This document shows positions 23,802 to 53,268 of a DNA stretch of 64,000 nt, piece after piece. Positions within the stretch are counted from its first letter, which is position 1; each line of letters begins with the position of its first letter. The stretch is from the NCBI GenBank assembly GCA_026018925.1, contig JAKSZU010000328.1:62001-126000 (forward strand). The letters run 5' to 3'. The notes beneath the pieces were generated by a model, which saw only the letters and a list, made by a program, of their open reading frames with translations, searched no databases and was not told the origin of the DNA. The position numbers and the translations under genes are program-made. The stretch is from Tupaia tana (Eukaryota; Chordata; Mammalia; Scandentia; Tupaiidae).

Positions 23802-26800
23802 GTCTCTGAGGTCTCTTTGTCTCTCTGCTCCTGTCTCCTCATTTTTTTTTTGGTAATTATTCCTTTTTTACGATTTTTTAAATGTAGAATTTCTTTCTGG
23901 CTCTCACCTCCAACTTTTGTTTTGTTAATAAGCCCTTCTGCTCCTTTCTCCCAGGCAGGAGTGTTGAGGCATTCTCTGAGAAGAATCCACATGGACACTG
24001 GGAACTAGATATTTCAGGCACAGGAGAAAATGAAGATTTTCTACTCATAATTCAGCCTCCAGCAAGCAAAGCTAGTGTGGTAGGGAGCCCCTCTGGCCTT
24101 CTATCCCTGTCCCTGTGTCTCTGAGGTCTCTGTGTCTCTCTGCTCCTGTCTCCTCATATTTTTTTTGGTAATTTTTCATTTTTACGATTTTTTTAAAGGT
24201 AGAATTTCTCTCTGGCTCTCAGCTCCATCTTTTGTTTTGTTAATAAGCCCTTCTGCTCCTTTCTCCCAGGCAGGAGAGTTGAGCCATTCTCTGAGAAGTA
24301 TCCACATGGATACTGGGAACGAGATATTTCAGGCACAGGAGAAATGAAGATTTTCTACTCATAATTCAGCCTCCAGCAAGCAAAGCTAGTGTAGTAGGGA
24401 GCCCCTCTGGCCTTCTATCCCTGTCCCTGTGTCTCTGAGGACTCTGTGTCTCCCTGCTCCTGTCTCATCATTTTTTTTTGGTAATTTTTCCTTTTTACGA
24501 TTTTTTTAAAGGTAGAATTTCTCTCTGGCTCTCAGCTCCATCTTTTGTTTTTGTTAATAAGCCCTTCTGCTCCTTTCTCCCAGGCAGGAGAGTTGAGCCA
24601 TTCTCTGAGAAGAATCCACATGGATACTGGGAACTAGATATTTCAGGCACAGGAGAAATGAAGATTTTCTACTCATAATTCAGCCTCCAGCAAGCAAAGC
24701 TAGTGTGGTAGGGAGCCCCTCTGGCCTTCTATCCCTGTCCCTGTGTCTCTGAGTTCTCTGTGTCTCTCTGCTCCTGTCTCCTCACTATTTTTTTTGGTAA
24801 TTTTTCCTTTTTACGATTTTTTTAAAGGTAGAATTTCTCTGTGGCTCTCAGCTCCATCTTTTGTTTTGTTAATAAGCCCTTCTTCTCCTTTCTCCCAGGC
24901 AGGATAGTTGAGCCATTCTCTGAGAAGAATCCACATGGATACTGGGAACTAGATATTTCAGGCACAGGAGAAATGAAGATTTTCTACTCATAATTCAGCC
25001 TCCAGCAAGCAAAGCTAGTGTGGTAGGGAGCCCCTCTGGCCTTCTATCCCTGTCCCTGTGTCTCTGAGGTCTCTGTGTCTCTCTGCTCCTGTCTCCTCAT
25101 TTTTTTTTGGTAATTTTTCCTTTTTAAGATTTTTTAAAGGTAGAATTTCTCTCTGGCTCTCAGCTCCAACTTTTGTTTTGTTAATAAGCCCTTCTGCTCC
25201 TTTCTCCCAGGCAGGAGAGTTGAGCCATTCTCTGAGAAGAATCCACATGGATACTGGGAACTAGATATTTCAGGCACAGGAGAAATGAAGATTTTCTACT
25301 CATAATTCAGCCTCCAGCAAGCAAAGCTAGTGTGGTAGGGGAGCCCCTCTGGCCTTCTATCCCTGTCCCTGTGTCTCTGAGTTCTCTGTGTCTCTCTGCT
25401 CCTGTCTCCTCATTTTTTTTTGGTAATTTTTCCTTTTTACGATTTTTTTAAAGGTAGAATTTCTCTCTGGCTCTCAGCTCCATCTTTTGTTTTGTTAATA
25501 AGCCCTTCTGCTCCTTTCTCCCAGGCAGGAGAGTTGAGCCATTCTCTGAGAAGTATCCACATGGATACTGGGAACTAGATATTTCAGGCACAGGAGAAAT
25601 GAAGATTTTTTACTCATAATTCAGCCTCCAGCAAGCAAAGCTAGTGTGGTAGGGAGCCCCTCTGGCCTTCTATCCCTGTCCCTGTGGCTCTGAGGTCTCT
25701 GTGTCTCTCTGCTCCTGTCTCCTCATATTTTTTTGGTAATTTTTTCCTTTTTACGATTTTTTTAAAGGTAGAATTTCTCTCTGGCTCTCAGCTCCATCTT
25801 TTGTTTTGTTAATAAGCCCTTCTGCTCCTTTCTCCCAGGCAGGAGAGTTGAGCCATTCTCTGAGAAGTATCCACATGGATACTGGGAACTAGATATTTCA
25901 GGCACAGGAGAAATGAAGATTTTCTTCTCATAATTCAGCCTCCAGCAAGCAAAGCTAGTGTGGTAGGGAGCCCCTCTGGCCTTCTATCCCTGTCCCTGTG
26001 TCTCTGAGGTCTCTGTGTCTCTGCTCCTGTCTCCTCATTTTTTTTTGGTAATTTTTCCTTTGTACGATTTTTTTAAAGGTAGAATTTCTCTCTGGCTCTC
26101 AGCTCCATCTTTTGTTTTGTTAATAAGCCCTTCTGCTACTTTCTCCCAGGCAGGAGAGTTAAGCCATTCTCTGAGAAGAATCCACATGGATACTGGGAAC
26201 TAGATATTTCAGGCACAGGAGAAATGAAGATTTTCTACTCATAATTCAGCCTCCAGCAAGCAAAGCTAGTGTGGTAGGGAGCCCCCTCTGGCCTTCTATC
26301 CCTGTCCCTGTGTCTCTGAGTTCTCTGTGTCTCTCTGCTCCTGTCTCCTCATTATTTTTTGGTAATTTTTCCGTTTTACGATTTTTTTAAAGGTAGAATT
26401 TCTCTCTGGCTCTCAGCTCCATCTTTTGTTTTGTTAATAAGCCCTTCTGGTCCTTTCTCCCAGGCAGGAGAGTTGAGCCATTCTCTGAGAAGATTCCACA
26501 TGGATACTGGGAACTAGATATTTCAGGCACAGGAGAAATGAAGATTTTCTACTCATAATTCAGCCTCCAGCAAGCAAAGCTAGTGTGGTAGGGAGCCCCG
26601 CTGGCTTTCTATCCCTGTCCCTGTGGCTCTGAGGTCTCTGTGTCTCTCTGCTCCTGTCTCCTCAATTTTTTTAGTAATTTTTCCATTTTACGATTTTTTT
26701 AAAAGGTATAATTTCTCTCTGGCTCTCAGCTCCATCTTTTGTTTTGTTAATAAGAACTTCTGCTCCTTTCTCCCAGGCAGGAGAGTTGAGCCATTCTCTG

Positions 26801-29454
26801 TGGAGGATCCACATGGATACTGGGAACTAGATATTTCAGGCACAGGAGAAATGAAGATTTTCTACTCATAATTCAGCCTCCAGCAAGCAAAGCTAGTGTG
26901 GTAGGGAGCCCCTCTGGCCTTCTAACCCTGTCCCTGTGTCTCTGAGGGTCTCTGTGTCTCTCTGCTCCTGTCTCCTCATATTTTTTTGGTAATTTTTCCT
27001 TTTTACGATGTTTTTTAAATGTAGAATTTCTCTCTGGCTCTCAGCTCCATCTTTTGTTTTGTTAATAAGCCCTTCTGCTCCTTTCTCCCAGGCAGGAGAG
27101 TTGAGCCATTCTCTGAGAAGAATCCACATGGATACTGGGAACTAGATATTTTCAGGCACAGGAGAAATGAAGATTTTCTACTCATAATTCAGCCTCCAGC
27201 AAGCAAAGCTAGTGTGGTAGGGAGCCCCTCTGGCCTGCTATCCCTGTCCCTGTGTCTCTGAGGTCTCTGTGTCTCCCTGCTCCTGTCTCGTCATTTTTTT
27301 TTTGGTAATTTTTCCTTTTTTACGATTTTTTTAAAGGTAGAATTTCTCTCTGGCTCTCAGCTCCATCTTTTGTTTTGTTAATAAGCCCTTCTGCTCCTTT
27401 CTCCCAGGCAGGAGAGTTGAGCCATTCTCGGAGAAGTATCCACATGGATACTGGGAACTAGATATTTCAGGCACAGGAGAAATGAAGATTTTCTACTCAT
27501 AATTCAGCCTCCAGCAAGCAAAGCTAGTGTGGTAGGGAGCCCCTCTGGGCTTCTATCCCTGTCCCTGTGTCTCTGAGGTCTCTGTGTCTCTCTGCTCCTG
27601 TCTCCCTCATTTTTTTTGGTAATTTTTCCTTATTACGATTTTTTTTAAAGGTAGAATTTCTCTCTGGCTCTCAGCTCCATCTTTTGTTTTGTTAATAAGC
27701 TCTTCTGCTCCTTTCTCCCAGGCAGGAGAGTTGAGCCATTCTCTGAGAAGAATCCACATGGATACTGGGAACTAGATATTTCAGGCACAGGAGAAATGAA
27801 GATTTTCTACTCATAATTCAGCCTCCAGCAAGCAAAGCTAGTGTGGTAGGGAGCCCCTCTGGCCTTCTATCCCCTGTCCCTGTGTCTCTGAGTTCTCTGT
27901 GTCTCTCTGCTCCTGTCTCTTCAGTTTTTTTTTTGGTAATTTTTCCTTTTTACGATTTTTTTTTAAAGGTAGAATTTCTCTCTGGCTCTCAGCTCCATCT
28001 TTTGTTTTGTTAATAAGCCCTTCTGGTCCTTTCTCCCAGGCAGGACAGTTGAGCCATTCTCTGAGAAGAATCCACATGGATACTGGGAACTAGATATTTC
28101 AGGCACAGGAGAAATGAAGATTTTCTACTCATAATTCAGCCTCCAGCTAGCAAAGCTAGTGTGGTAGAGAGCCCCTCTGGCCTTCTATCCCTGTCCCTGT
28201 GGCTCTGAGGTCTCTGAGTCTCTCTGCTCCTGTCTCCTCATTTTTTTTTTTGGTAATTTTTCCATTTTACGATTTTTTTAAAGGTAGAATTTCTCTCTGG
28301 CTCTCAGCTCCATCTTTTGTTTTGTTAATAAGCCCTTCTGCTCCTTTCTCCCAGGCAGGAGAGTTGAGCCATTCTCTGAGAAGAATCCACATGGATACTG
28401 GGAACTAGATATTTCAGGCACAGGAGAAATGAAGATTTTCTACTCATAATTCAGCCTCCAGCAAGCAAAGCTAGTGTGGTAGGGAGCCCCTCTGGCCTTC
28501 TATCCCTGTCCCTGTGTCTCTGAGGTCTCTGTGTCTCTCTGCTCCTGTCTCCTCATTTTTTTTGGTAATTTTTCCTTTTTACGATTTTTTTAAAGGTAGA
28601 ATTTCTCTCTGGCTCTCAGCTCCATCTTTTGTTTTGTTAATAAGCCCTTCTGCTCCTTTCTCCCAGGCAGGAGAGTTGAGCCATTCTCTGAGAAGAATCC
28701 ACATGGATACTGGGAACTAGATATTTCAGGCACAGGAGAAATGAAGATTTTCTACTCATAATTCAGCCTCCAGCAAGCAAAGCTAGTGTGGTAGGGAGCC
28801 CCTCTGGCCTTCTATCCCTGTCCCTGTGTCTCTGAGGTCTCTGTGTATCTCTGCTCCTGTCTCCTCATTTTTTTTGGTAATTTTTCCTTTTTACGATTTT
28901 TTTAAACGTAGAATTTCTCTCTGGCTCTCAGCTCCATGTTTTGTTTGGTTAATAAGCCCTTCTGGTCCTTTCTCCCAGGTAGGAGAGTTGAGCCATTCTC
29001 TGAGAAGAATTCACATGGGATACAGGGAACTAAATATTTCAGGCACAGGGGAAATGAAGATTTTCTACTCATAATTCAGCCTCCAGCAAGCAAAGCTTGT
29101 GTGGTAGGGAGCCCCTCTGGCCTTCTATCCCTGTCTCTGTGTCTCTGAGGTCTCTGTGTCTCTCTGATCCTGTCTCCTCATTTTTTTTTGGTAATTTATC
29201 CTTTTTATGATTTTTTTAAAGGTATAATATCTCTCTGGCTCTCAGCTACATCTTTTGTTTTGTTAATAAGCCCTTTCTGCTCCTTTCTCCCAGGCAGGAG
29301 AGTTGAGCCATTCTCTGAGAAGAATCCACATGGTTACTGGGAACTAGATATTTCAGGCACAGGAGAAATGAAGATTTTCTACTCATAATTCAGCCTCCAG
29401 CAATTAAAGCTAGTGTGGTAGAGAGCCCCTCTGGCCTTCTATCCCTGTCCCTGT
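23802..29454. repeat. 18-monomer block, HOR copy 1 part a
   Basis: The order is X Y Z T A Q R S P V W U L K J I H M. It has a single U monomer (27254). K's end carries 'gtagagagcc' before J, and J has 'gtctctgagtc' (about 28211). The same two marks are found in the equivalent block at 38551. S here (about 26000) lacks one 'tct' from its 'gtctctctg' run. Single-base insertions are frequent, for example near 24029, 24548, 25341, 26284 and 27151. Confidence 0.92.
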
Positions 29455-32400
29455 GTCTCTGAGGTCTCTTTGTCTCTCTGCTCCTGTCTCCTCATTATTT
29501 TTTTGGTAATTATTCCTTTTTACGATTTTTTAAATGTAGAATTTCTTTCTGGCTCTCACCTCCAACTTTTGTTTTGTTAATAAGCCCTTCTGCTCCTTTC
29601 TCCCAGGCAGGAGTGTTGAGGCATTCTCTGAGAAGAATCCACATGGACACTGGGAACTAGATATTTCAGGCACAGGAGAAATGAAGAATTTCTACTCATA
29701 ATTCAGCCTCCAGCAAGCAAAGCTAGTGTGGTAGGGAGCCCCTCTGGCCTTCTATCCCTGTCCCTGTGTCTCTGAGGTCTCTGTGTCACTCTGCTCCTGT
29801 CTCCTCATATTTTTTTGGTAATTTTTCATTTTTACGATTTTTTTAAAGGTAGAATTTCTCTCTGGCTCTCAGCTCCATCTTTTGTTTTGTTAATAAGCCC
29901 TTCTGCTCCTTTCTCCCAGGCAGGATAGTTGAGCCATTCTCTGAGAAGAATCCACATGGATACTGGGAACTAGATATTTCAGGCACAGGAGAAATGAAGA
30001 TTTTCTACTCATAATTCAGCCTCCAGCAAGCAAAGCTAGTGTGGTAGGGAGCCCCTCTGGCCTTCTATCCCTGTCCCTGTGTCTCTGAGGTCTCTGTGTC
30101 TCTCTGCTCCTGTCTCCTCATTTTTTTTTTGGTAATTTTTCCTTTTTAAGATTTTTTAAAGGTTAGAATTTCTCTCTGGCTCTCAGCTCCAACTTTTGTT
30201 TTGTTAATAAGCCCTTCTGCTCCTTTCTCCCAGGCAGGATAGTTGAGCCATTCTCTGAGAAGAATCCACATGGATACTGGGAACTAGATATTTCAGGCAC
30301 AGGAGAAATGAAGATTTTCTACTCATAATTCAGCCTCCAGCAAGCAAAGCTAGTGTGGTAGGGAGCCCCTCTGGCCTTCTATCCCTGTCCCTGTGTCTCT
30401 GAGGTCTCTGTGTCTCTCTGCTCCTGTCTCCTCATTTTTTTTTGGTAATTTTTCCTTTTTAAGATTTTTTAAAGGTAGAATTTCTCTCTGGCTCTCAGCT
30501 CCAACTTTTGTTTTGTTAATAAGCCCTTCTGCTCCTTTCTCCCAGGCAGGAGAGTTGAGCCATTCTCTGAGAAGAATCCACATGGATACTGGGAACTAGA
30601 TATTTCAGGCACAGGAGAAATGAAGATTTTCTACTCATAATTCAGCCTCCAGCAAGCAAAGCTAGTGTGGTAGGGAGCCCCTCTGGGCTTCTATCCCTGT
30701 CCCTGTGTCTCTGAGGTCTCTGTGTCTCTCTGCTCCTGTCTCCTCATTTTTTTTTGGTAATTTTTCCTTATTACGATTTTTTTAAAGGTAGAATTTCTCT
30801 CTGGCTCTCAGCTCCATCTTTTGTTTTGTTAATAAGCTCTTCTGCTCCTTTCTCCCAGGCAGGAGAGTTGAGCCATTCTCTGAGAAGAATCCACATGGAT
30901 ACTGGGAACTAGATATTTCAGGCACAGGAGAAATGAAGATTTTCTACTCATAATTCAGCCTCCAGCAAGCAAAGCTAGTGTGGTAGGGAGCCCCTCTGGC
31001 CTTCTATCCCTGTCCCTGTGTCTCTGAGTTCTTTGTGTCTCTCTGCTCCTGTCTCTTCAGTTTTTTTTTTGGTAATTTTTCCTTTTTACGATTTTTTTTA
31101 AAGGTAGAATTTCTCTCTGGCTCTCAGCTCCATCTTTTGTTTTGTTAATAAGGCCCTTCTGGTCCTTTCTCCCAGGCAGGACAGTTGAGCCATTCTCTGA
31201 GAAGAATCCACATGGATACTGGGAACTAGATATTTCAGGCACAGGAGAAATGAAGATTTTCTACTCATAATTCAGCCTCCAGCTAGCAAAGCTAGTGTGG
31301 TAGGGAGCCCCTCTGGCCTTCTATCCCTGTCCCTGTGGCTCTGAGGTCTCTGTGTCTCTCTGCTCCTGTCTCCTCATTTTTTTTTTTGGTAATTTTTCCA
31401 TTTTACGATTTTTTTTAAAGGTAGAATTTCTCTCTGGCTCTCAGCTCCATCTTTTGTTTTGTTAATAAGCCCTTCTGCTCCTTTCTCCCAGGCAGGAGAG
31501 TTGAGCCATTCTCTGAGAAGAATCCACATGGATACTGGGAACTAGATATTTCAGGCACAGGAGAAATGAAGATTTTCTACTCATAATTCAGCCTCCAGCA
31601 AGCAAAGCTAGTGTGGTAGGGAGCCCCCTCTGGCCTTCTATCCCTGTCCCTGTGTCTCTGAGGTCTCTGTGTCTCTCTGCTCCTGTCTCCTCCTTTTTTT
31701 TTGGTAATTTTTCCTTTTTAAGATTTTTTAAAGGTAGAATTTCTCTCTGGCTCTCAGCTCCAACTTTTGTTTTGTTAATAAGCCCTTCTGCTCCTTTCTC
31801 CCAGGCAGGAGAGTTGAGCCATTCTCTGAGAAGAATCCACATGGATACTGGGAACTAGATATTTCAGGCACAGGAGAAATGAAGATTTTCTACTCATAAT
31901 TCAGCCTCCAGCAAGCAAAGCTAGTGTGGTAGGGAGCCCCTCTGGGCTTCTATCCCTGTCCCTGTGTCTCTGAGGTATCTGTGTCTCTCTGCTCCTGTCT
32001 CCTCATTTTTTTTGGTAATTTTTCCTTATTACGATTTTTTTAAAGGTAGAATTTCTCTCTGGCTCTCAGCTCCATCTTTTGTTTTGTTAATAAGCTCTTC
32101 TGCTCCTTTCTCCCAGGCAGGAGAGTTGAGCCATTCTCTGAGAAGAATCCACATGGATACTGGGAACTAGATATTTCAGGCACAGGAGAAATGAAGATTT
32201 TCTACTCATAATTCAGCCTCCAGCAAGCAAAGCTAGTGTGGTAGGGAGCCCCTCTGGCCTTCTATCCCTGTCCCTGTGTCTCTGAGTTCTTTGTGTCTCT
32301 CTGCTCCTGTCTCTTCAGTTTTTTTTTTGGTAATTTTTCCTTTTTACGATTTTTTTTAAAGGTAGAATTTCTCTCTGGCTCTCAGCTCCATCTTTTGTTT

Positions 32401-33534
32401 TGTTAATAAGCCCTTCTGGTCCTTTCTCCCAGGCAGGACAGTTGAGCCATTCTCTGAGAAGAATCCACATGGATACTGGGAACTAGATATTTCAGGCACA
32501 GGAGAAATGAAGATTTTCTACTCATAATTCAGCCTCCAGCTAGCAAAGCTAGTGTGGTAGGGAGCCCCTCTGGCCTTCTATCCCTGTCCCTGTGGCTCTG
32601 AGGTCTCTGTGTCTCTCTGCTCCTGTCTCCCTCATTTTTTTTTTTGGTAATTTTTCCATTTTACGATTTTTTTAAAGGTAGAATTTCTCTCTGGCTCTCA
32701 GCTCCATCTTTTGTTTTGTTAATAAGCCCTTCTGCTCCTTTCTCCCAGGCAGGAGAGTTGAGCCATTCTCTGAGAAGAATCCACATGGATACTGGGAACT
32801 AGATATTTCAGGCACAGGAGAAATGAAGATTTTCTACTCATAATTCAGCCTCCAGCAAGCAAAGCTAGTGTGGTAGGGAGCCCCTCTGGCCTTCTATCCC
32901 TGTCCCTGTGTCTCTGAGGTCTCTGTGTATCTCTGCTCCTGTCTCCTCATTTTTTTTGGTAATTTTTCCTTTTTACGATTTTTTTAAACGTAGAATTTCT
33001 CTCTGGCTCTCAGCTCCATGTTTTGTTTTGTTAATAAGCCCTTCTGGTCCTTTCTCCCAGGTAGGAGAGTTGAGCCATTCTCTGAGAAGAATTCACATGG
33101 ATACAGGGAACTAAATATTTCAGGCACAGGAGAAATGAAGATTTTCTACTCATAATTCAGCCTCCAGCAAGCAAAGCTTGTGTGGTAGGGAGCCCCTCTG
33201 GCCTTCTATCCCTGTCTCTGTGTCTCTGAGGTCTCTGTGTCTCTCTGATCCTGTCTCCTCATTTTTTTTTGGTAATTTATCCTTTTGATGATTTTTTTAA
33301 AGGTATAATATCTCTCTGGCTCTCAGCTACATCTTTTGTTTTGTTAATAAGCCCTTCTGCTCCTTTCTCCCAGGCAGGAGAGTTGAGCCATTCTCTGAGA
33401 AGAATCCACATGGTTACTGGGAACTAGATATTTCAGGCACAGGAGAAATGAAGATTTTCTACTCATAATTCAGCCTCCAGCAAGCAAAGCTAGTGTGGTA
33501 GAGAGCCCCTCTGGCCTTCTATCCCTGTCCCTGT
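29455..33534. repeat. 13-monomer block, HOR copy 1 part b
   Basis: The order is X, Y/T hybrid (29768), A/T hybrid (30081), A (30395), L, K, J, A, L, K, J, H, M. Compared with 19403-23801, the separate Y, Z and T monomers are replaced by one Y/T fusion, and an extra A-type monomer ending like T has been gained. The second A has 'ctcctttttt' in place of 'ctcattttt', and the second L has 'gaggtatctg'. Both marks recur at 46374-46700 in HOR copy 2. Confidence 0.92.
29768..30080. repeat. Y/T hybrid monomer
   Basis: The 5' part is Y ('catattttttt', 'tttttcattttta') and the 3' part is T ('caggatagttg', 'gagaagaatcc', 'gaactagat'). The switch lies between about 29835 and 29935, where Y and T are nearly identical. 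The expected Z is missing. A matching hybrid is at 44496-44808. Confidence 0.88.
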
Positions 33535-36500
33535 GTCTCTGAGGTCTCTTTGTCTCTCTGCTCCTGTCTCCTCATTTTTTTTTTTGGTAATTATTCCTTT
33601 TTACGATTTTTTAAATGTAGAATTTCTTTCTGGCTCTCACCTCCAACTTTTGTTTTGTTAATAAGCCCTTCTGCTCCTTTCTCCCAGGCAGGAGTGTTGA
33701 GGCATTCTCTGAGAAGAATCCACATGGACACTGGGAACTAGATATTTCAGGCACAGGAGAAATGAAGATTTTCTACTCATAATTCAGCCTCCAGCAAGCA
33801 AAGCTAGTGTGGTAGGGAGCCCCTCTGGCCTTCTATCCCTGTCCCTGTGTCTCTGAGGTCTCTGTGTCTCTCTGCTCCTGTCTCCTCATATTTTTTTGGT
33901 AATTTTTCATTTTTACGATTTTTTTAAAGGTAGAATTTCTCTCTGGCTCTCAGCTACATCTTTTGTTTTGTTAATAAGCCCTTCTGCTCCTTTCTCCCAG
34001 GCAGGAGAGTTGAGCCATTCTCTGAGAAGTATCCACATGGATACTGGGAACGAGATATTTCAGGCACAGGAGAAATGAAGATTTTCTACTCATAATTCAG
34101 CCTCCAGCAAGCAAAGCTAGTGTAGTAGGGAGCCCCTCTGGCCTTCTATCCCTGTCCCTGTGTCTCTGAGGACTCTGTGTCTCCCTGCTCCTGTCTCATC
34201 ATTTTTTTTTGGTAATTTTTCCTTTTTACGATTTTTTTAAAGGTAGAATTTCTCTCTGGCTCTCAGCTCCATCTTTTGTTTTGTTAATAAGCCCTTCTGC
34301 TCCTTTCTCCCAGGCAGGAGAGTTGAGCCATTCTCTGAGAAGAATCCACATGGATACTGGGAACTAGATATTTCAGGCACAGGAGAAATGAAGATTTTCT
34401 ACTCATAATTCAGCCTCCAGCAAGCAAAGCTAGTGTGGTAGGGAGCCCCTCTGGCCTTCTATCCCTGTCCCTGTGTCTCTGAGTTCTCTGTGTCTCTCTG
34501 CTCCTGTCTCCTCACTATTTTTTTTGGTAATTTTTCCTTTTTACGATTTTTTTAAAGGTAGAATTTCTCTGTGGCTCTCAGCTCCATCTTTTGTTTTGTT
34601 AATAAGCCCTTCTGCTCCTTTCTCCCAGGCAGGATAGTTGAGCCATTCTCTGAGAAGAATCCACATGGATACTGGGAACTAGATATTTCAGGCACAGGAG
34701 AAATGAAGATTTTCTACTCATAATTCAGCCTCCAGCAAGCAAAGCTAGTGTGGTAGGGAGCCCCTCTGGCCTTCTATCCCTGTCCCTGTGTCTCTGAGGT
34801 CTCTGTGTCTCTCTGCTCCTGTCTCCTCATTTTTTTTTGGTAATTTTTCCTTTTTAAGATTTTTTAAAGGTAGAATTTCTCTCTGGCTCTCAGCTCCAAC
34901 TTTTGTTTTGTTAATAAGCCCTTCTGCTCCTTTCTCCCAGGCAGGAGAGTTGAGCCATTCTCTGAGAAGAATCCACATGGATACTGGGAACTAGATATTT
35001 CAGGCACAGGAGAAATGAAGATTTTCTACTCATAATTCAGCCTCCAGCAAGCAAAGCTAGTGTGGTAGGGAGCCCCTCTGGCCTTCTATCCCTGTCCCTT
35101 GTGTCTCTGAGTTCTCTGTGTCTCTCTGCTCCTGTCTCCTCATTTTTTTTTGGTAATTTTTCCTTTTTACGATTTTTTTAAAGGTAGAATTTCTCTCTGG
35201 CTCTCAGCTCCATCTTTTGTTTTGTTAATAAGCCCTTCTGCTCCTTTCTCCCAGGCAGGAGAGTTGAGCCATTCTCTGAGAAGTATCCACATGGATACTG
35301 GGAACTAGATATTTCAGGCACAGGAGAAATGAAGATTTTTTACTCATAATTCAGCCTCCAGCAAGCAAAGCTAGTGTGGTAGGGAGCCCCTCTGGCCTTC
35401 TATCCCTGTCCCTGTGGCTCTGAGGTCTCTGTGTCTCTCTGCTCCTGTCTCCTCATATTTTTTTTGGTAATTTTTCCTTTTTACGATTTTTTTAAAGGTA
35501 GAATTTCTCTCTGGCTCTCAGCTCCATCTTTTGTTTTGTTAATAAGCCCTTCTGCTCCTTTCTCCCAGGCAGGGAGAGTTGAGCCATTCTCTGAGAAGTA
35601 TCCACATGGATACTGGGAACTAGATATTTCAGGCACAGGAGAAATGAAGATTTTCTTCTCATAATTCAGCCTCCAGCAAGCAAAGCTAGTGTGGTAGGGA
35701 GCCCCTCTGGCCTTCTATCCCTGTCCCTGTGTCTCTGAGGTCTCTGTGTCTCTCTGCTCCTGTCTCCTCATTTTTTTTGGTAATTTTTCCTTTGTACGAT
35801 TTTTTTAAAGGTAGAATTTCTCTCTGGCTCTCAGCTCCATCTTTTGTTTTGTTAATAAGCCCTTCTGCTACTTTCTCCCAGGCAGGAGAGTTAAGCCATT
35901 CTCTGAGAAGAATCCACATGGATACTGGGAACTAGATATTTCAGGCACAGGAGAAATGAAGATTTTCTACTCATAATTCAGCCTCCAGCAAGCAAAGCTA
36001 GTGTGGTAGGGAGCCCCTCTGGCCTTCTATCCCTGTCCCTGTGTCTCTGAGTTCTCTGTGTCTCTCTGCTCCTGTCTCCTCATTATTTTTTGGTAATTTT
36101 TCCGTTTTACGATTTTTTTAAAGGTAGAATTTCTCTCTGGCTCTCAGCTCCATCTTTTGTTTTGTTAATAAGCCCTTCTGGTCCTTTCTCCCAGGCAGGA
36201 GAGTTGAGCCATTCTCTGAGAAGATTCCACATGGATACTGGGAACTAGATATTTCAGGCACAGGAGAAATGAAGATTTTCTACTCATAATTCAGCCTCCA
36301 GCAAGCAAAGCTAGTGTGGTAGGGAGCCCCTCTGGCTTTCTATCCCTGTCCCTGTGGCTCTGAGGGTCTCTGTGTCTCTCTGCTCCTGTCTCCTCAATTT
36401 TTTTAGTAATTTTTCCATTTTACGATTTTTTAAAAGGTATAATTTCTCTCTGGCTCTCAGCTCCATCTTTTGTTTTGTTAATAAGAACTTCTGCTCCTTT

Positions 36501-40295: not shown

Positions 40296-40312
40296 GTATC
40301 CACATGGATACT
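40295..40312. repeat. 18-bp near-perfect palindrome in 'gaagtatcc' monomers
   Basis: 'agtatccacatggatact' has two 8-bp arms that are exact reverse complements around a CA centre. It is present wherever the monomer has 'gagaagtatcc' (Y, Q, R, U and others). The majority form 'gagaagaatcc' shortens the uninterrupted stem to five base pairs. The centre contains the E-box-like 'cacatg'. Confidence 0.85.
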
Positions 40313-40428
40313 GGGAACTAGATATTTCAGGCACAGGAGAAATGAAGATTTTTTACTCATAATTCAGCCTCCAGCAAGCAAAGCTAGTGTGGTAGGGAGC
40401 CCCTCTGGCCTTCTATCCCTGTCCCTGT

Positions 40429-42931: not shown

Positions 42932-43246
42932 GGCTCTGAGGTCTCTGAGTCTCTCTGCTCCTGTCTCCTCATTTTTTTTTTTGGTAATTTTTCCATTTTA
43001 CGATTTTTTTAAAGGTAGAATTTCTCTCTGGCTCTCAGCTCCATCTTTTGTTTTGTTAATAAGCCCTTCTGCTCCTTTCTCCCAGGCAGGAGAGTTGAGC
43101 CATTCTCTGAGAAGAATCCACATGGATACTGGGAACTAGATATTTCAGGCACAGGAGAAATGAAGATTTTCTACTCATAATTCAGCCTCCAGCAAGCAAA
43201 GCTAGTGTGGTAGGGAGCCCCTCTGGCCTTCTATCCCTGTCCCTGT
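42932..43246. repeat. Monomer type J
   Basis: Marks are 'ggctctgag', a long first T tract before 'ggtaat', and 'ttccattttacg'. It always follows K or a K-ended hybrid, except at 6559 (after L). Subtypes have 'gtctctgagtc' (28200, 38232, 42932, 52944 and 57977) and 'ttttgataattt' (38232, 52944 and 57977). Confidence 0.87.
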
Positions 43247-43322
43247 GTCTCTGAGGTCTCTGTGTCTCTCTGCTCCTGTCTCCTCATTTTTTTTGGTAAT
43301 TTTTCCTTTTTACGATTTTTTT

Positions 43323-43332
43323 AAAGGTAGAA
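43323..43332 (+). other. 5' splice-donor-like site (example of one per monomer)
   Basis: 'aaaggtagaa' resembles an AAG/GTRAGT donor with a weak downstream half. It lies about 70 bp upstream of the acceptor-like AG in the same monomer, so splicing between neighbours would leave roughly 240-nt pieces. It becomes 'aaaggtataa' in V and M and 'aaacgtagaa' in H. Confidence 0.3.
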
Positions 43333-43360
43333 TTTCTCTCTGGCTCTCAGCTCCATCTTT

Positions 43361-43397
43361 TGTTTTGTTAATAAGCCCTTCTGCTCCTTTCTCCCAG
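43361..43397 (+). other. 3' splice-acceptor-like site (example of one per monomer)
   Basis: In this consensus-like monomer a branch-point-like 'ttaat' (adenine at 43371) is followed by an AG-free pyrimidine tract and 'ctcccag' with AG at 43396-43397, a 26-nt branch-to-AG distance. The arrangement fits vertebrate acceptor rules. Nearly every monomer carries the same site, so the plus strand offers about 200 of them. No exon structure or transcript evidence is visible, so this is sequence resemblance only. Confidence 0.5.
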
Positions 43398-43558
43398 GCA
43401 GGAGAGTTGAGCCATTCTCTGAGAAGAATCCACATGGATACTGGGAACTAGATATTTCAGGCACAGGAGAAATGAAGATTTTCTACTCATAATTCAGCCT
43501 CCAGCAAGCAAAGCTAGTGTGGTAGGGAGCCCCTCTGGCCTTCTATCCCTGTCCCTGT

Positions 43559-43870
43559 GTCTCTGAGGTCTCTGTGTATCTCTGCTCCTGTCTCCTCATT
43601 TTTTTTGGTAATTTTTCCTTTTTACGATTTTTTTAAACGTAGAATTTCTCTCTGGCTCTCAGCTCCATGTTTTGTTTGGTTAATAAGCCCTTCTGGTCCT
43701 TTCTCCCAGGTAGGAGAGTTGAGCCATTCTCTGAGAAGAATTCACATGGATACAGGGAACTAAATATTTCAGGCACAGGGGAAATGAAGATTTTCTACTC
43801 ATAATTCAGCCTCCAGCAAGCAAAGCTTGTGTGGTAGGGAGCCCCTCTGGCCTTCTATCCCTGTCTCTGT
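43559..43870. repeat. Monomer type H
   Basis: Marks are 'gtgtatctctg', 'taaacgtagaa', 'ctccatgttttg', 'ctggtcc', 'cccaggtagg', 'agaattcacatgg', 'atacagggaactaaat' and 'gcttgtgtgg' at the end. The 'gcagg' to 'gtagg' change keeps the acceptor-like AG. The subtype with 'tttgtttggtt' is limited to the 18- and 19-monomer blocks. H precedes M, except within the 14.4-19.4 kb ladder. Confidence 0.88.
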
Positions 43871-44182
43871 GTCTCTGAGGTCTCTGTGTCTCTCTGATCC
43901 TGTCTCCTCATTTTTTTTTGGTAATTTATCCTTTTTATGATTTTTTAAAGGTATAATATCTCTCTGGCTCTCAGCTACATCTTTTGTTTTGTTAATAAGC
44001 CCTTCTGCTCCTTTCTCCCAGGCAGGAGAGTTGAGCCATTCTCTGAGAAGAATCCACATGGTTACTGGGAACTAGATATTTCAGGCACAGGAGAAATGAA
44101 GATTTTCTACTCATAATTCAGCCTCCAGCAATTAAAGCTAGTGTGGTAGAGAGCCCCTCTGGCCTTCTATCCCTGTCCCTGT
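43871..44182. repeat. Monomer type M
   Basis: Marks are 'cctgtctctgtg' upstream, 'tctgatcctg', 'aatttatcc', 'tttatgatttt' (or 'ttgatgat', CpG lost), 'ggtataatatc', 'gctacatc' and 'catggttactgg', followed by 'gtagagagcc'. In the later blocks it always directly precedes X. M-like monomers at 1552, 3747 and 10946 are instead followed by U-like monomers, an older arrangement. Confidence 0.88.
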
Positions 44183-47100
44183 GTCTCTGAGGTCTCTTTG
44201 TCTCTCTGCTCCTGTCTCCTCATTATTTTTTTGGTAATTATTCCTTTTTACGATTTTTAAAATGTAGAATTTCTTTCTGGCTCTCACCTCCAACTTTTGT
44301 TTTGTTAATAAGCCCTTCTGCTCCTTTCTCCCAGGCAGGAGTGTTGAGGCATTCTCTGAGAAGAATCCACATGGACACTGGGAACTAGATATTTCAGGCA
44401 CAGGAGAAATGAAGAATTTCTACTCATAATTCAGCCTCCAGCAAGCAAAGCTAGTGTGGTAGGGAGCCCCTCTGGCCTTCTATCCCTGTCCCTGTGTCTC
44501 TGAGGTCTCTGTGTCACTCTGCTCCTGTCTCCTCATATTTTTTTGGTAATTTTTCATTTTTACGATTTTTTTAAAGGTAGAATTTCTCTCTGGCTCTCAG
44601 CTCCATCTTTTGTTTTGTTAATAAGCCCTTCTGCTCCTTTCTCCCAGGCAGGATAGTTGAGCCATTCTCTGAGAAGAATCCACATGGATACTGGGAACTA
44701 GATATTTCAGGCACAGGAGAAATGAAGATTTTCTACTCATAATTCAGCCTCCAGCAAGCAAAGCTAGTGTGGTAGGGAGCCCCTCTGGCCTTCTATCCCT
44801 GTCCCTGTGTCTCTGAGGTCTCTGTGTCTCTCTGCTCCTGTCTCCTCATTTTTTTTTTGGTAATTTTTCCTTTTAAGATTTTTTAAAGGTAGAATTTCTC
44901 TCTGGCTCTCAGCTCCAACTTTTGTTTTGTTAATAAGCCCTTCTGCTCCTTTCTCCCAGGCAGGATAGTTGAGCCATTCTCTGAGAAGAATCCACATGGA
45001 TACTGGGAACTAGATATTTCAGGCACAGGAGAAATGAAGATTTTCTACTCATAATTCAGCCTCCAGCAAGCAAAGCTAGTGTGGTAGGGAGCCCCTCTGG
45101 CCTTCTATCCCTGTCCCTGTGTCTCTGAGGTCTCTGTGTCTCTCTGCTCCTGTCTCCTCATTTTTTTTTGGTAATTTTTCCTTTTTAAGATTTTTTAAAG
45201 GTAGAATTTCTCTCTGGCTCTCAGCTCCAACTTTTGTTTTGTTAATAAGCCCTTCTGCTCCTTTCTCCCAGGCAGGAGAGTTGAGCCATTCTCTGAGAAG
45301 AATCCACATGGATACTGGGAACTAGATATTTCAGGCACAGGAGAAATGAAGATTTTCTACTCATAATTCAGCCTCCAGCAAGCAAAGCTAGTGTGGTAGG
45401 GAGCCCCTCTGGGCTTCTATCCCTGTCCCTGTGTCTCTGAGGTCTCTGTGTCTCTCTGCTCCTGTCTCCTCATTTTTTTTGGTAATTTTTCCTTATTACG
45501 ATTTTTTTAAAGGTAGAATTTCTCTCTGGCTCTCAGCTCCATCTTTTGTTTTGTTAATAAGCTCTTCTGCTCCTTTCTCCCAGGCAGGAGAGTTGAGCCA
45601 TTCTCTGAGAAGAATCCACATGGATACTGGGAACTAGATATTTCAGGCACAGGAGAAATGAAGATTTTCTACTCATAATTCAGCCTCCAGCAAGCAAAGC
45701 TAGTGTGGTAGGGAGCCCCTCTGGCCTTCTATCCCTGTCCCTGTGTCTCTGAGTTCTTTGTGTCTCTCTGCTCCTGTCTCTTCAGTTTTTTTTTTGGTAA
45801 TTTTTCCTTTTTACGATTTTTTTTAAAGGTAGAATTTCTCTCTGGCTCTCAGCTCCATCTTTTGTTTTGTTAATAAGCCCTTCTGGTCCTTTCTCCCAGG
45901 CAGGACAGTTGAGCCATTCTCTGAGAAGAATCCACATGGATACTGGGAACTAGATATTTCAGGCACAGGAGAAATGAAGATTTTCTACTCATAATTCAGC
46001 CTCCAGCTAGCAAAGCTAGTGTGGTAGGGAGCCCCTCTGGCCTTCTATCCCTGTCCCTGTGGCTCTGAGGTCTCTGTGTCTCTCTGCTCCTGTCTCCTCA
46101 TTTTTTTTTTTGGTAATTTTTCCATTTTACGATTTTTTTAAAGGTAGAATTTCTCTCTGGCTCTCAGCTCCATCTTTTGTTTTGTTAATAAGCCCTTCTG
46201 CTCCTTTCTCCCAGGCAGGAGAGTTGAGCCATTCTCTGAGAAGAATCCACATGGATACTGGGAACTAGATATTTCAGGCACAGGAGAAATGAAGATTTTC
46301 TACTCATAATTCAGCCTCCAGCAAGCAAAGCTAGTGTGGTAGGGAGCCCCTCTGGCCTTCTATCCCTGTCCCTGTGTCTCTGAGGTCTCTGTGTCTCTCT
46401 GCTCCTGTCTCCTCCTTTTTTTTTGGTAATTTTTCCTTTTTAAGATTTTTTAAAGGTAGAATTTCTCTCTGGCTCTCAGCTCCAACTTTTGTTTTGTTAA
46501 TAAGCCCTTCTGCTCCTTTCTCCCAGGCAGGAGAGTTGAGCCATTCTCTGAGAAGAATCCACATGGATACTGGGAACTAGATATTTCAGGCACAGGAGAA
46601 ATGAAGATTTTCTACTCATAATTCAGCCTCCAGCAAGCAAAGCTAGTGTGGTAGGGAGCCCCTCTGGGCTTCTATCCCTGTCCCTGTGTCTCTGAGGTAT
46701 CTGTGTCTCTCTGCTCCTGTCTCCTCATTTTTTTTGGTAATTTTTCCTTATTACGATTTTTTTAAAGGTAGAATTTCTCTCTGGCTCTCAGCTCCATCTT
46801 TTGTTTTGTTAATAAGCTCTTCTGCTCCTTTCTCCCAGGCAGGAGAGTTGAGCCATTCTCTGAGAAGAATCCACATGGATACTGGGAACTAGATATTTCA
46901 GGCACAGGAGAAATGAAGATTTTCTACTCATAATTCAGCCTCCAGCAAGCAAAGCTAGTGTGGTAGGGAGCCCCTCTGGCCTTCTATCCCTGTCCCTGTG
47001 TCTCTGAGTTCTTTGTGTCTCTCTGCTCCTGTCTCTTCAGTTTTTTTTTTGGTAATTTTTCCTTTTTACGATTTTTTTTAAAGGTAGAATTTCTCTCTGG

Positions 47101-48256
47101 CTCTCAGCTCCATCTTTTGTTTTGTTAATAAGCCCTTCTGGTCCTTTCTCCCAGGCAGGACAGTTGAGCCATTCTCTGAGAAGAATCCACATGGATACTG
47201 GGAACTAGATATTTCAGGCACAGGAGAAATGAAGATTTTCTACTCATAATTCAGCCTCCAGCTAGCAAAGCTAGTGTGGTAGGGAGCCCCTCTGGCCTTC
47301 TATCCCTGTCCCTGTGGCTCTGAGGTCTCTGTGTCTCTCTGCTCCTGTCTCCTCATTTTTTTTTTGGTAATTTTTCCATTTTACGATTTTTTTAAAGGTA
47401 GAATTTCTCTCTGGCTCTCAGCTCCATCTTTTGTTTTGTTAATAAGCCCTTCTGCTCCTTTCTCCCAGGCAGGAGAGTTGAGCCATTCTCTGAGAAGAAT
47501 CCACATGGATACTGGGAACTAGATATTTCAGGCACAGGAGAAATGAAGATTTTCTACTCATAATTCAGCCTCCAGCAAGCAAAGCTAGTGTGGTAGGGAG
47601 CCCCTCTGGCCTTCTATCCCTGTCCCTGTGTCTCTGAGGTCTCTGTGTATCTCTGCTCCTGTCTCCTCATTTTTTTTGGTAATTTTTCCTTTTTACGATT
47701 TTTTTAAACGTAGAATTTCTCTCTGGCTCTCAGCTCCATGTTTTGTTTTGTTAATAAGCCCTTCTGGTCCTTTCTCCCAGGTAGGAGAGTTGAGCCATTC
47801 TCTGAGAAGAATTCACATGGATTACAGGGAACTAAATATTTCAGGCACAGGAGAAATGAAGATTTTCTACTCATAATTCAGCCTCCAGCAAGCAAAGCTT
47901 GTGTGGTAGGGAGCCCCTCTGGCCTTCTATCCCTGTCTCTGTGTCTCTGAGGTCTCTGTGTCTCTCTGATCCTGTCTCCTCATTTTTTTTTTGGTAATTT
48001 ATCCTTTTGATGATTTTTTTAAAGGTATAATATCTCTCTGGCTCTCAGCTACATCTTTTGTTTTGTTAATAAGCCCTTCTGCTCCTTTCTCCCAGGCAGG
48101 AGAGTTGAGCCATTCTCTGAGAAGAATCCACATGGTTACTGGGAACTAGATATTTCAGGCACAGGAGAAATGAAGATTTTCTACTCATAATTCAGCCTCC
48201 AGCAAGCAAAGCTAGTGTGGTAGAGAGCCCCTCTGGCCTTCTATCCCTGTCCCTGT
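44183..48256. repeat. 13-monomer block, HOR copy 2 part b
   Basis: The order is X, Y/T hybrid (44496), A/T hybrid (44809), A (45121), L, K, J, A, L, K, J, H, M, as in 29455-33534. X is preceded by 'gcaattaaagc' and followed by 'gaagaatttc', both also found at the equivalent places in copy 1. The Y/T hybrid carries 'gtgtcactctg' in both copies. The fusion therefore arose before the 14.7 kb unit was duplicated. An extra base occurs in H ('gattacaggg', near 47820). Confidence 0.92.
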
Positions 48257-51200
48257 GTCTCTGAGGTCTCTTTGTCTCTCTGCTCCTGTCTCCTCATTTT
48301 TTTTTTGGTAATTATTCCTTTTTACGATTTTTTAAATGTAGAATTTCTTTCTGGCTCTCACCTCCAACTTTTGTTTTGTTAATAAGCCCTTCTGCTCCTT
48401 TCTCCCAGGCAGGAGTGTTGAGGCATTCTCTGAGAAGAATCCACATGGACACTGGGAACTAGATATTTCAGGCACAGGAGAAATGAAGATTTTCTACTCA
48501 TAATTCAGCCTCCAGCAAGCAAAGCTAGTGTGGTAGGGAGCCCCTCTGGCCTTCTATCCCTGTCCCTGTGTCTCTGAGGTCTCTGTGTCTCTCTGCTCCT
48601 GTCTCCTCATATTTTTTTGGTAATTTTTCATTTTTACGATTTTTTTAAAGGTAGAATTTCTCTCTGGCTCTCAGCTACATCTTTTGTTTTGTTAATAAGC
48701 CCTTCTGCTCCTTTCTCCCAGGCAGGAGAGTTGAGCCATTCTCTGAGAAGTATCCACATGGATACTGGGAACGAGATATTTCAGGCACAGGAGAAATGAA
48801 GATTTTCTACTCATAATTCAGCCTCCAGCAAGCAAAGCTAGTGTAGTAGGGAGCCCCTCTGGCCTTCTATCCCTGTCCCTGTGTCTCTGAGGACTCTGTG
48901 TCTCCCTGCTCCTGTCTCATCATTTTTTTTTGGTAATTTTTCCTTTTTACGATTTTTTTAAAGGTAGAATTTCTCTCTGGCTCTCAGCTCCATCTTTTGT
49001 TTTGTTAATAAGCCCTTCTGCTCCTTTCTCCCAGGCAGGAGAGTTGAGCCATTCTCTGAGAAGAATCCACATGGATACTGGGAACTAGATATTTCAGGCA
49101 CAGGAGAAATGAAGATTTTCTACTCATAATTCAGCCTCCAGCAAGCAAAGCTAGTGTGGTAGGGAGCCCCTCTGGCCTTCTATCCCTGTCCCTGTGTCTC
49201 TGAGTTCTCTGTGTCTCTCTGCTCCTGTCTCCTCACTATTTTTTTTGGTAATTTTTCCTTTTTACGATTTTTTTAAAGGTAGAATTTCTCTGTGGCTCTC
49301 AGCTCCATCTTTTGTTTTGTTAATAAGCCCTTCTGCTCCTTTCTCCCAGGCAGGATAGTTGAGCCATTCTCTGAGAAGAATCCACATGGATACTGGGAAC
49401 TAGATATTTCAGGCACAGGAGAAATGAAGATTTTCTACTCATAATTCAGCCTCCAGCAAGCAAAGCTAGTGTGGTAGGGAGCCCCTCTGGCCTTCTATCC
49501 CTGTCCCTGTGTCTCTGAGGTCTCTGTGTCTCTCTGCTCCTGTCTCCTCATTTTTTTTTGGTAATTTTTCCTTTTTAAGATTTTTTAAAGGTAGAATTTC
49601 TCTCTGGCTCTCAGCTCCAACTTTTGTTTTGTTAATAAGCCCTTCTGCTCCTTTCTCCCAGGCAGGAGAGTTGAGCCATTCTCTGAGAAGAATCCACATG
49701 GATACTGGGAACTAGATATTTCAGGCAACAGGAGAAATGAAGATTTTCTACTCATAATTCAGCCTCCAGCAAGCAAAGCTAGTGTGGTAGGGAGCCCCTC
49801 TGGCCTTCTATCCCTGTCCCTGTGTCTCTGAGTTCTCTGTGTCTCTCTGCTCCTGTCTCCTCATTTTTTTTTGGTAATTTTTCCTTTTTACGATTTTTTT
49901 AAAGGTAGAATTTCTCTCTGGCTCTCAGCTCCATCTTTTGTTTTGTTAATAAGCCCTTCTGCTCCTTTCTCCCAGGCAGGAGAGTTGAGCCATTCTCTGA
50001 GAAGTATCCACATGGATACTGGGAACTAGATATTTCAGGCACAGGAGAAATGAAGATTTTTTACTCATAATTCAGCCTCCAGCAAGCAAAGCTAGTGTGG
50101 TAGGGAGCCCCTCTGGCCTTCTATCCCTGTCCCTGTGGCTCTGAGGTCTCTGTGTCTCTCTGCTCCTGTCTCCTCATATTTTTTTGGTAATTTTTCCTTT
50201 TTACGATTTTTTTAAAGGTAGAATTTCTCTCTGGCTCTCAGCTCCATCTTTTGTTTTGTTAATAAGCCCTTCTGCTCCTTTCTCCCAGGCAGGAGAGTTG
50301 AGCCATTCTCTGAGAAGTATCCACATGGATACTGGGAACTAGATATTTCAGGCACAGGAGAAATGAAGATTTTCTTCTCATAATTCAGCCTCCAGCAAGC
50401 AAAGCTAGTGTGGTAGGGAGCCCCTCTGGCCTTCTATCCCTGTCCCTGTGTCTCTGAGGTCTCTGTGTCTCTCTGCTCCTGTCTCCTCATTTTTTTTGGT
50501 AATTTTTCCTTTGTACGATTTTTTTAAAGGTAGAATTTCTCTCTGGCTCTCAGCTCCATCTTTTGTTTTGTTAATAAGCCCTTCTGCTACTTTCTCCCAG
50601 GCAGGAGAGTTAAGCCATTCTCTGAGAAGAATCCACATGGATACTGGGAACTAGATATTTCAGGCACAGGAGAAATGAAGATTTTCTACTCATAATTCAG
50701 CCTCCAGCAAGCAAAGCTAGTGTGGTAGGGAGCCCCTCTGGCCTTCTATCCCTGTCCCTGTGTCTCTGAGTTCTCTGTGTCTCTCTGCTCCTGTCTCCTC
50801 ATTATTTTTTGGTAATTTTTCCGTTTATACGATTTTTTTAAAGGTAGAATTTCTCTCTGGCTCTCAGCTCCATCTTTTGTTTTGTTAATAAGCCCTTCTG
50901 GTCCTTTCTCCCAGGCAGGAGAGTTGAGCCATTCTCTGAGAAGATTCCACATGGATACTGGGAACTAGATATTTCAGGCACAGGAGAAATGAAGATTTTC
51001 TACTCATAATTCAGCCTCCAGCAAGCAAAGCTAGTGTGGTAGGGAGCCCCTCTGGCTTTCTATCCCTGTCCCTGTGGCTCTGAGGTCTCTGTGTCTCTCT
51101 GCTCCTGTCTCCTCAATTTTTTTAGTAATTTTTCCATTTTACGATTTTTTAAAAGGTATAATTTCTCTCTGGCTCTCAGCTCCATCTTTTGTTTTGTTAA

Positions 51201-53268
51201 TAAGAACTTCTGCTCCTTTCTCCCAGGCAGGAGAGTTGAGCCATTCTCTGTGGAGGATCCACATGGATACTGGGAACTAGATATTTCAGGCACAGGAGAA
51301 ATGAAGATTTTCTACTCATAATTCAGCCTCCAGCAAGCAAAGCTAGTGTGGTAGGGAGCCCCTCTGGCCTTCTAACCCTGTCCCTGTGTCTCTGAGGTCT
51401 CTGTGTCTCTCTGCTCCTGTCTCCTCATATTTTTTTGGTAATTTTTCCTTTTTACGATGTTTTTAAATGTAGAATTTCTCTCTGGCTCTCAGCTCCATCT
51501 TTTGTTTTGTTAATAAGCCCTTCTGCTCCTTTCTCCCAGGCAGGAGAGTTGAGCCATTCTCTGAGAAGAATCCACATGGATACTGGGAACTAGATATTTC
51601 AGGCACAGGAGAAATGAAGATTTTCTACTCATAATTCAGCCTCCAGCAAGCAAAGCTAGTGTGGTAGGGAGCCCCTCTGGCCTGCTATCCCTGTCCCTGT
51701 GTCTCTGAGGTCTCTGTGTCTCCCTGCTCCTGTCTCGTCATTTTTTTTTGGTAATTTTTCCTTTTTACGATTTTTTAAAGGTAGAATTTCTCTCTGGCTC
51801 TCAGCTCCATCTTTTGTTTTGTTAATAAGCCCTTCTGCTCCTTTCTCCCAGGCAGGAGAGTTGAGCCATTCTCGGAGAAGTATCCACATGGATACTGGGA
51901 ACTAGATATTTCAGGCACAGGAGAAATGAAGATTTTCTACTCATAATTCAGCCTCCAGCAAGCAAAGCTAGTGTGGTAGGGAGCCCCTCTGGCCTGCTAT
52001 CCCTGTCCCTGTGTCTCTGAGGTCTCTGTGTCTCCCTGCTCCTGTCTCGTCATTTTTTTTTGGTAATTTTTCCTTTTTACGATTTTTTTAAAGGTAGAAT
52101 TTCTCTCTGGCTCTCAGCTCCATCTTTTGTTTTGTTAATAAGCCCTTCTGCTCCTTTCTCCCAGGCAGGAGAGTTGAGCCATTCTCGGAGAAGTATCCAC
52201 ATGGATACTGGGAACTAGATATTTCAGGCACAGGAGAAATGAAGATTTTCTACTCATAATTCAGCCTCCAGCAAGCAAAGCTAGTGTGGTAGGGAGCCCC
52301 TCTGGGCTTCTATCCCTGTCCCTGTGTCTCTGAGGTCTCTGTGTCTCTCTGCTCCTGTCTCCTCATTTTTTTTGGTAATTTTTCCTTATTACGATTTTTT
52401 TAAAGGTAGAATTTCTCTCTGGCTCTCAGCTCCATCTTTTGTTTTGTTAATAAGCTCTTCTGCTCCTTTCTCCCAGGCAGGAGAGTTGAGCCATTCTCTG
52501 AGAAGAATCCACATGGATACTGGGAACTAGATATTTCAGGCACAGGAGAAATGAAGATTTTCTACTCATAATTCAGCCTCCAGCAAGCAAAGCTAGTGTG
52601 GTAGGGAGCCCCTCTGGCCTTCTATCCCTGTCCCTGTGTCTCTGAGTTCTCTGTGTCTCTCTGCTCCTGTCTCTTCAGTTTTTTTTTTTGGTAATTTTTC
52701 CTTTTTACGATTTTTTTTAAAGGTAGAATTTCTCTCTGGCTCTCAGCTCCATCTTTTGTTTTGTTAATAAGCCCTTCTGGTCCTTTCTCCCAGGCAGGAC
52801 AGTTGAGCCATTCTCTGAGAAGAATCCACATGGATACTGGGAACTAGATATTTCAGGCACAGGAGAAATGAAGATTTTCTACTCATAATTCAGCCTCCAG
52901 CTAGCAAAGCTAGTGTGGTAGGGAGCCCCTCTGGCCTTCTATCCCTGTCCCTGTGGCTCTGAGGTCTCTGAGTCTCTCTGCTCCTGTCTCCTCATTTTTT
53001 TTTTGATAATTTTTCCATTTTACGATTTTTTTAAAGGTAGAATTTCTCTCTGGCTCTCAGCTCCATCTTTTGTTTTGTTAATAAGCCCTTCTGCTCCTTT
53101 CTCCCAGGCAGGAGAGTTGAGCCATTCTCTGAGAAGAATCCACATGGATACTGGGAACTAGATATTTCAGGCACAGGAGAAATGAAGATTTTCTACTCAT
53201 AATTCAGCCTCCAGCAAGCAAAGCTAGTGTGGTAGAGAGCCCCTCTGGCCTTCTATCCCTGTCCCTGT
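48257..53268. repeat. 16-monomer block, HOR copy 2 part c
   Basis: The order is X Y Z T A Q R S P V W U U L K J, with U doubled at 51701 and 52013 and J carrying 'ttttgataattt' near 53003. The first U has two T residues fewer in its second T tract than the second U. The P monomer has 'ccgtttatacg' near 50822, a change not seen in the other P copies. X follows J directly at 53269. Confidence 0.92.

Follow-up and report, generated by a model that had tools for sequence, protein, structure and literature searches.

A probable recent 47-monomer tandem duplication in a 313-bp satellite array of Tupaia tana and its proposed origin by two unequal exchanges

A stretch of 64,000 nucleotides of the Tupaia tana genome (assembly GCA_026018925.1, contig JAKSZU010000328.1, positions 62,001 to 126,000; hereafter the window) consists of a 313-bp satellite, in which a series of 47 monomers stands twice in succession. 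The locus is probably a very young local tandem duplication in a non-homogenised array, produced by two successive in-register unequal exchanges. On balance, it is slightly better regarded as a freeze-frame of the birth of a higher-order repeat (HOR) than not: a superHOR unit of about 50 monomers at the stage of two copies, with both founding exchanges recoverable and one of them confined to 88 bp, in an abundant satellite for which the literature searched gave no description.

Two copies of a 47-monomer series

The two copies adjoin each other:

23616..38364, + strand, copy 1 of the 47-monomer unit (18 + 13 + 16 blocks), 14,749 bp
38365..53082, + strand, copy 2 of the unit, 14,718 bp, with a substitution identity of 99.95% to copy 1

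The monomer phase used here starts 186 bp before that of the original prediction, which had been made from the sequence alone and had described the same series of 47 monomers twice in succession. A global MAFFT alignment of the copies contains 8 mismatches and 43 gap columns (99.946% identity by substitution), and three of the mismatches, close to 32631, are in fact two one-base indels. A stricter gap model gave 6 mismatch columns and 45 indel bases, the column at 31152 being a chunk-edge effect where the unbroken alignment shows an inserted G. The repetition of the series was confirmed by comparison with 16 usable control offsets (of 22), at which identity ranged from 96.4 to 98.1%; the remaining six (±1, ±2, +46 and +48) were unusable because end gaps let them slide onto themselves or onto the true copy. 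With the boundaries given originally, 23802-38550 is likewise far closer to 38551-53268 than the offset segments are (99.952%), and the four distances between corresponding X monomers (14,749, 14,728, 14,722 and 14,718 bp) were reproduced exactly.

Among lags of 1-179 monomers, lag 47 had the lowest mean, with 6.28 substitutions over all 156 monomer pairs compared to 9.57 for all pairs in the window. Within 23616-56848 the means were 0.63 substitutions at lag 47 (59 pairs), 6.61 at lag 31 (75 pairs, 9.7 kb) and 7.36 at lag 16 (90 pairs, 5.0 kb). From 23616 onwards, 59 consecutive monomers match their partners 47 further on if single misses are allowed. The longest unbroken run of matching monomers (at most 2 substitutions) on the contig is 30, whereas 100 shuffles of the monomer order gave runs of at most 4. 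The expected excess of a signal at about 14.72 kb over those at 5.0 and 9.7 kb was found by monomer lags in 23616-56848, but not by a plain count of 24-mer offsets over the whole window, in which 14.7 kb (0.550), 9.7 kb (0.558) and 5.0 kb (0.522) are not separated.

The unit is divided into blocks by a distinct monomer, X. Ten window monomers carry all eight rare states diagnostic of X, a gap being one of the eight; the states had been picked from seven of the ten. All other window monomers have fewer than four. Starting at these monomers, the following blocks were annotated:

7625, 19217, 23616, 29269, 33349, 38365, 43997, 48071, 53083, 59051, + strand, starts of the X monomers in the window (X-diagnostic states)
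19217..23615, + strand, X-block of 14 monomers to the left of copy 1; from 20474 on they match the final ten monomers of the 13-block (7 substitutions)
23616..29268, + strand, 18-monomer block L1
29269..33348, + strand, 13-monomer block, copy 1
33349..38364, + strand, 16-monomer block S1
38365..43996, + strand, 18-monomer block L2, whose head bears two letters of the 19-block (mosaic)
43997..48070, + strand, 13-monomer block, copy 2
48071..53082, + strand, 16-monomer block S2, with zero substitutions against S1 over 5,010 matched bases and 8 indel bases
53083..59050, + strand, 19-monomer X-block after copy 2; its first 12 monomers extend the unit at lag 47, followed by nine at lag 48 (mean 1.89 substitutions)

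The X-block lengths in the window are thus 37, 14, 18, 13, 16, 18, 13, 16 and 19 monomers, then 30 running past the window end; to the right of the 19-block the contig continues with 30, 24, 10, 16, 12, 24 and 15. Altogether 17 X monomers recur at block starts on the contig. Threshold detection missed monomer 291 and took in monomer 517, and a hand-set list of 16 includes the former and omits the latter. Because the monomers from 20474 match the end of the 13-block, the 47-mer does not continue leftwards.

The composition of 18 + 13 + 16 X-initiated blocks given in the original prediction is exact, and the two copies resemble each other far more than the monomers within them do. The 18- and 16-blocks have a 12-monomer core in common, and the 13-block is a shorter relative. 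The number of 47 monomer types could not be upheld: at tolerances of 1 and 2 substitutions, copy 2 contains 26 and 20 types, and the noisier copy 1 contains 30 and 24. The types of copy 2 differ by 2.98% on average, with 10.7% of the pairs above 5%.

Proposed origin of the duplication

According to the proposed history, the ancestral block order would have been 18-13-19. In a first event, monomer 17 of the 19-block would have recombined with the X of the same block. The product would be 18-13-16-19′, in which the new junction carries a hybrid X. In a second event, the 12-monomer core common to 19′ and 18 would have recombined 47 monomers out of register, resulting in 18-13-16-18′-13-16-19′. 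The route may have been a sister-chromatid crossover or an equivalent replication-restart jump; we would favour the crossover, with the events in this order. Unequal crossing over and break-induced recombination are both named among the mechanisms of satellite change in the available part of a published account (PMC8122249). The observed block lengths (18, 13, 16, 18, 13, 16, 19) fit two events exactly, with a total of 113 monomers (contig monomers 273-385). A history with a single event (18-13-19 to 18-13-16-18-13-19) was rejected, as it lacks a second 16-block before 19′.

Both junctions between a 16-block and the following X carry the same change of parentage:

38430..38518, + strand, change of parent where copy 1 meets copy 2, 62-40 on the left and 65-X on the right (between sites 380 and 468 in the pair of monomers that begins at 38051)
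53148..53236, + strand, identical switch interval at the second S-to-X junction

At the junction of the copies, a type-62 monomer is followed by a hybrid X, and the switch lies between bases 380 and 468 of this pair, an interval of 88 bp. To the left, 19 of the 20 informative sites follow the 62-40 parent (19 of the 20 sites lie in the monomer before X and one at base 66 of X); to the right, all 7 follow the 65-X parent. Between its bases 67 and 153 the hybrid X is identical to both example parents. An unequal exchange is marked by a single parental switch within a homology tract with the register kept, and this was found here with one of 27 sites dissenting; the register is seen in the length of 310-318 bp of all 621 complete monomers of the contig. 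The switch at the second junction is identical, and the two junctions therefore probably go back to a single event.

The second exchange was traced by aligning the five cores. Six of the ten substitution columns, namely 402 and five around 3680, turned out to be run-length or two-base indels, leaving four real columns at 66, 606, 1264 and 2978, of which the last two are private to L1. At position 66, which lies in X, the two junction X monomers (L2 and the 19-block) have A, and L1, S1 and S2 have T. Core position 606, which is position 294 of the monomer after X, is A in S1, L2, S2 and the 19-block only (4 of 16 X-blocks) and C in L1 and the other 11. The A common to these four blocks argues that the head of L2 came from 19′ or its kin, as the two-event model predicts. 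L2 is without the extra monomer of the 19-block, like L1, and the second exchange would accordingly be placed to the right of core position 606 and to the left of this extra monomer.

Several observations weigh against this history. The mosaic rests on two substitution sites, and site 154 on the left of the junction reads as the wrong parent. The A at position 66 also occurs in X monomer 386, which follows a normal type-65 monomer, and is not exclusive to hybrids. Monomers 13-18 of L2 show 3, 0, 0, 0, 0 and 0 differences from L1 and 0, 0, 6, 0, 0 and 0 from the 19-block shifted by one; they cannot tell the two apart, so that only the missing monomer argues for L1 there. The letters of copy 1 at 24884 and 26600 (found in 2 and 1 of the 621 monomers) and the run-boundary T/A at 29531 either do not follow from this history or are consensus noise. 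Finally, an assembly loop would give the identical sequence, mosaic head included.

Such a loop is the main rival explanation, and we consider it a serious but clearly less probable one. It states that 18-13-16-19′ is present once in the chromosome and that the assembler jumped from the 19′ core to the near-identical core of the 18-block, thereby writing 14.7 kb twice. From monomer 13 of the 18-block to the end of the 16-block, the differences between the copies are one-base indels, almost all of them in runs, plus one run-boundary T/A, although at least one such indel (contig position 98107) is not in a run. Over the whole unit, the 45 indel bases include 39 that repeat the base next to them and 38 that are extra in copy 1, which has the look of long-read error. 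Private one-base insertions are also crowded at the locus: contig 81.5-141 kb, with 190 monomers, has 66 of them, compared to 6 in the preceding 260 monomers and none afterwards. Inside this noisy zone they lie at contig 81.8-98.2, 109.8-124.5 and 134.2-140.5 kb and cover the greater part of copy 1 and the last part of copy 2, so the assembly path rests on a weak consensus there. In window positions, by monomer starts, the two patches are:

19844..36170, no strand, left patch of noisy consensus with private one-base insertions, thinning rightwards
47756..62503, no strand, zone of private one-base insertions, right patch

A precedent exists in the 33mer HORs of human chromosome 21 in hg38, which are absent from the complete assembly according to the available text of PMC12385485. 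The junction between S1 and L2 (window position 38365), however, is located within contig 98,170-109,756, in which 0 private insertions and 1 private deletion were found. Furthermore, the contig has other local duplications where the consensus is clean, with 0.06 substitutions per monomer over 16 monomers at lag 21, which shows that such events do occur in this array.

If the duplication by two exchanges is accepted, it can be dated roughly. After removal of two exchange-explained sites and the chunk-edge column, at most three substitution columns are left in 14.7 kb under the stricter gap model. At substitution rates of 1-5 × 10^-9 per site per year, the duplication would then be about 20,000-100,000 years old, a figure derived from three differences, some or all of which may be consensus errors.

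The array and the reach of the unit

The window is part of a longer array, which was annotated as follows:

1..64000, + strand, head-to-tail 313-bp satellite array in a single monomer orientation (203 monomers segmented), extending beyond both window edges

Tandem Repeats Finder reported positions 1-64000 as a single tandem array with a period of 313 and 204.1 copies. The contig (202,589 bp; C451 below) consists of this array up to about 194,759, and the remaining 7.8 kb or so is other DNA. The mean number of substitutions between monomers is 9.6 within the window and 10.2 over the contig, and the CpG frequency in the window is 0.08 of that expected.

On the contig, runs at lag 47 (at least 5 monomers, at most 1 substitution) start only at contig positions 89,697, 91,582, 94,724 and 98,170, all within the unit. 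The 47-mer is present as two copies plus 12 monomers and nowhere else among the 621 monomers. Other local duplications were found elsewhere in the array at lags 21, 50, 62 and 12; the one at lag 21 comprises contig positions 10495-15499 and 17066-22069, and a four-monomer motif stands in series at 51,791-53,983. The X monomer at window position 7625 opens the unusually long 37-monomer block (7625-19216), which contains an internal 6-monomer duplication (14833-18590).

The whole assembly (2,948,224,869 bases in 1198 contigs) was searched for the X-diagnostic 29-mer, with counts that are lower bounds. The exact 29-mer has at least 14 matches in these 2.95 Gb, and all those found are on C451. With one mismatch there are at least 25, of which 17 are on C451 and 8 on C226, C446, C497, C628 and C1082. 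This bears on the possibility that the window shows the edge of a 47-mer HOR that is already established and has many further copies elsewhere, either unassembled or collapsed. The identity of the copies is as high as in homogenised HORs, but both flanks on the same contig are not 47-mer and, among the matches found, only the 8 with one mismatch on five contigs lie outside C451, so that we judge this reading improbable. Because of the two copies plus 12 monomers in 621 and the finding of the exact 29-mer on C451 alone, the 47-mer looks like a local tandem duplication in an irregular array, at most a newborn cascading HOR, and not like an array-wide established HOR.

A functionally selected unit, in which the 47-mer or the X monomer holds a protein-binding or origin signal that drives amplification, is hardly credible. 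In its favour, X monomers recur at block starts and the monomer contains the near-palindrome AGAATCCACATGGATACT. Among 52 non-redundant window monomers, however, 91% of equal windows are no more variable than this near-palindrome, and the longest invariant run (11) is at chance level (P 0.32). In the consensus, the best match to the CENP-B box contains 6 mismatches, and no core box occurs in the window. A search of the window against Rfam at gathering scores gave no match. The array is probably structural heterochromatin and perhaps peri- or centromeric, as predicted from its size and spread; no sequence-specific function is proposed for the 47-mer.

In non-random 1-kb samples, the 313-bp satellite was detected in 22 of 40 other contigs, with one further contig carrying a 125-bp derivative and one a weak match (71 bases, 77%). 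Nine of 12 sampled contigs align to C451 over about 1 kb at 88.2-96.0% at best; the other three samples are L035 (97.6% over 754 bases), L020 (91.1% over 448) and L018 (91.6% over 131). Eight random 1-kb pieces of C451, used as a control, match elsewhere in C451 at 97.4-100%. Because the samples from other contigs mostly lie at 88.2-96.0% compared to 97.4-100% inside C451, the satellite appears more uniform within a contig than between contigs, which is expected under concerted evolution, although L035, with its shorter match, falls in the control range.

A 125-bp tandem unit from monomer positions 25-154 was observed in L018 (C442, a contig of 14.1 Mb, positions 20001-21000) and in L035, and seems to be a shorter satellite made from a piece of the 313-bp monomer. 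The period of L020 is 442 bp (about 313 + 129). A second, GC-rich satellite (0.59-0.60) with a period of 350-351 bp occurs in the samples L023, L042 and L044. Past the array end at about 194,759, AT-rich DNA with several copies of a tRNA-like short interspersed element (SINE) was recognised by eye (L016, C451 195001-202589), and four stretches of it match L019 at 82-88%. Neither tRNA genes nor Rfam families (gathering scores) were found in L016, and a literature search with words for the SINE-like element returned none.

The literature search by satellite size and sequence words returned, in the texts as far as available, no description of the 313-bp satellite; a nematode genome with a 313-bp repeat surfaced. 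Bacterial and archaeal contigs, viral contigs and phage records were scanned for the satellite, and nothing was found beyond one 20-mer in a bacterial metagenome-assembled genome. This match was discarded, its alignment to the consensus being limited to those 20 bases, which is about chance level by our own estimate.

Relation to known higher-order repeats

The designation as a higher-order repeat in the original prediction applies in part. A tandem multi-monomer unit with near-identical copies, much closer to each other than the monomers, is present; repeated amplification and homogenisation along the array are not, with two copies plus 12 monomers in an array of 621. In a Willard-type HOR every monomer is a different type, whereas 20-26 types (copy 2) or 24-30 (copy 1) are found among the 47. 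The aligned rows with repeated types of a cascading superHOR (Gluncic/Paar), a layout known from alpha satellites of orangutan and human, are found in the 18/13/16 rows with their common X start, but the types of such units are more than 5% apart (PMC12428378), compared to the mean of 2.98% in copy 2. The satellite is not alpha satellite, which has monomers of about 171 bp and a CENP-B box in part of them. The sequence feature is a real one that had been partly mis-described, and the kind of event is already known.

The following comparisons refer to the parts of the cited reports that were available. The 52mer HOR of alpha satellite on human chromosome 21 (PMC12385485) likewise has a unit of about 50 monomers and only two complete copies, which are 0.2% apart; its monomers differ by 17.7% within a copy, compared to about 3% here. 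The cascading 58mer superHOR of the orangutan Y chromosome (PMC12428378) also repeats types inside the unit, in rows of 13, 16, 7, 4 and 18 instead of 18, 13 and 16, and its variants arise by row duplication and loss, similar to the present unit. It belongs to a different satellite and has dozens to hundreds of copies (67 or 310 are given) in contrast to two. The 59mer HOR of orangutan chromosome 13 (PMC11276891), also alpha satellite, has a very long unit and a cascading layout as well. Outside primates, the chicken CNM HORs (PMC9974502) have units of 26-98 monomers, but the monomer is 41 bp long, clusters contain 5-162 units at acrocentric centromeres, and CENP-A is usually located at or near the cluster edges. 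crowSat1 of the hooded crow (quoted in PMC6115840), compared by description only, is alike in its unit of about 14 kb. The size of the present assembly (2.95 Gb) does not suit a bird, which makes the lead to bird satellites in the original prediction unlikely.

For the annotation of satellites in draft assemblies the locus is a warning, as a two-copy 'superHOR' can be a single recent duplication or an assembly loop. The origin of HOR units is usually argued from arrays that are already homogenised. In the Tupaia tana array the founding steps would be readable from the block order and shared variants, namely a hybrid monomer, a 16-monomer duplication and then the 47-monomer duplication, and the locus may thus be a first step on the way to a HOR that is not yet established.

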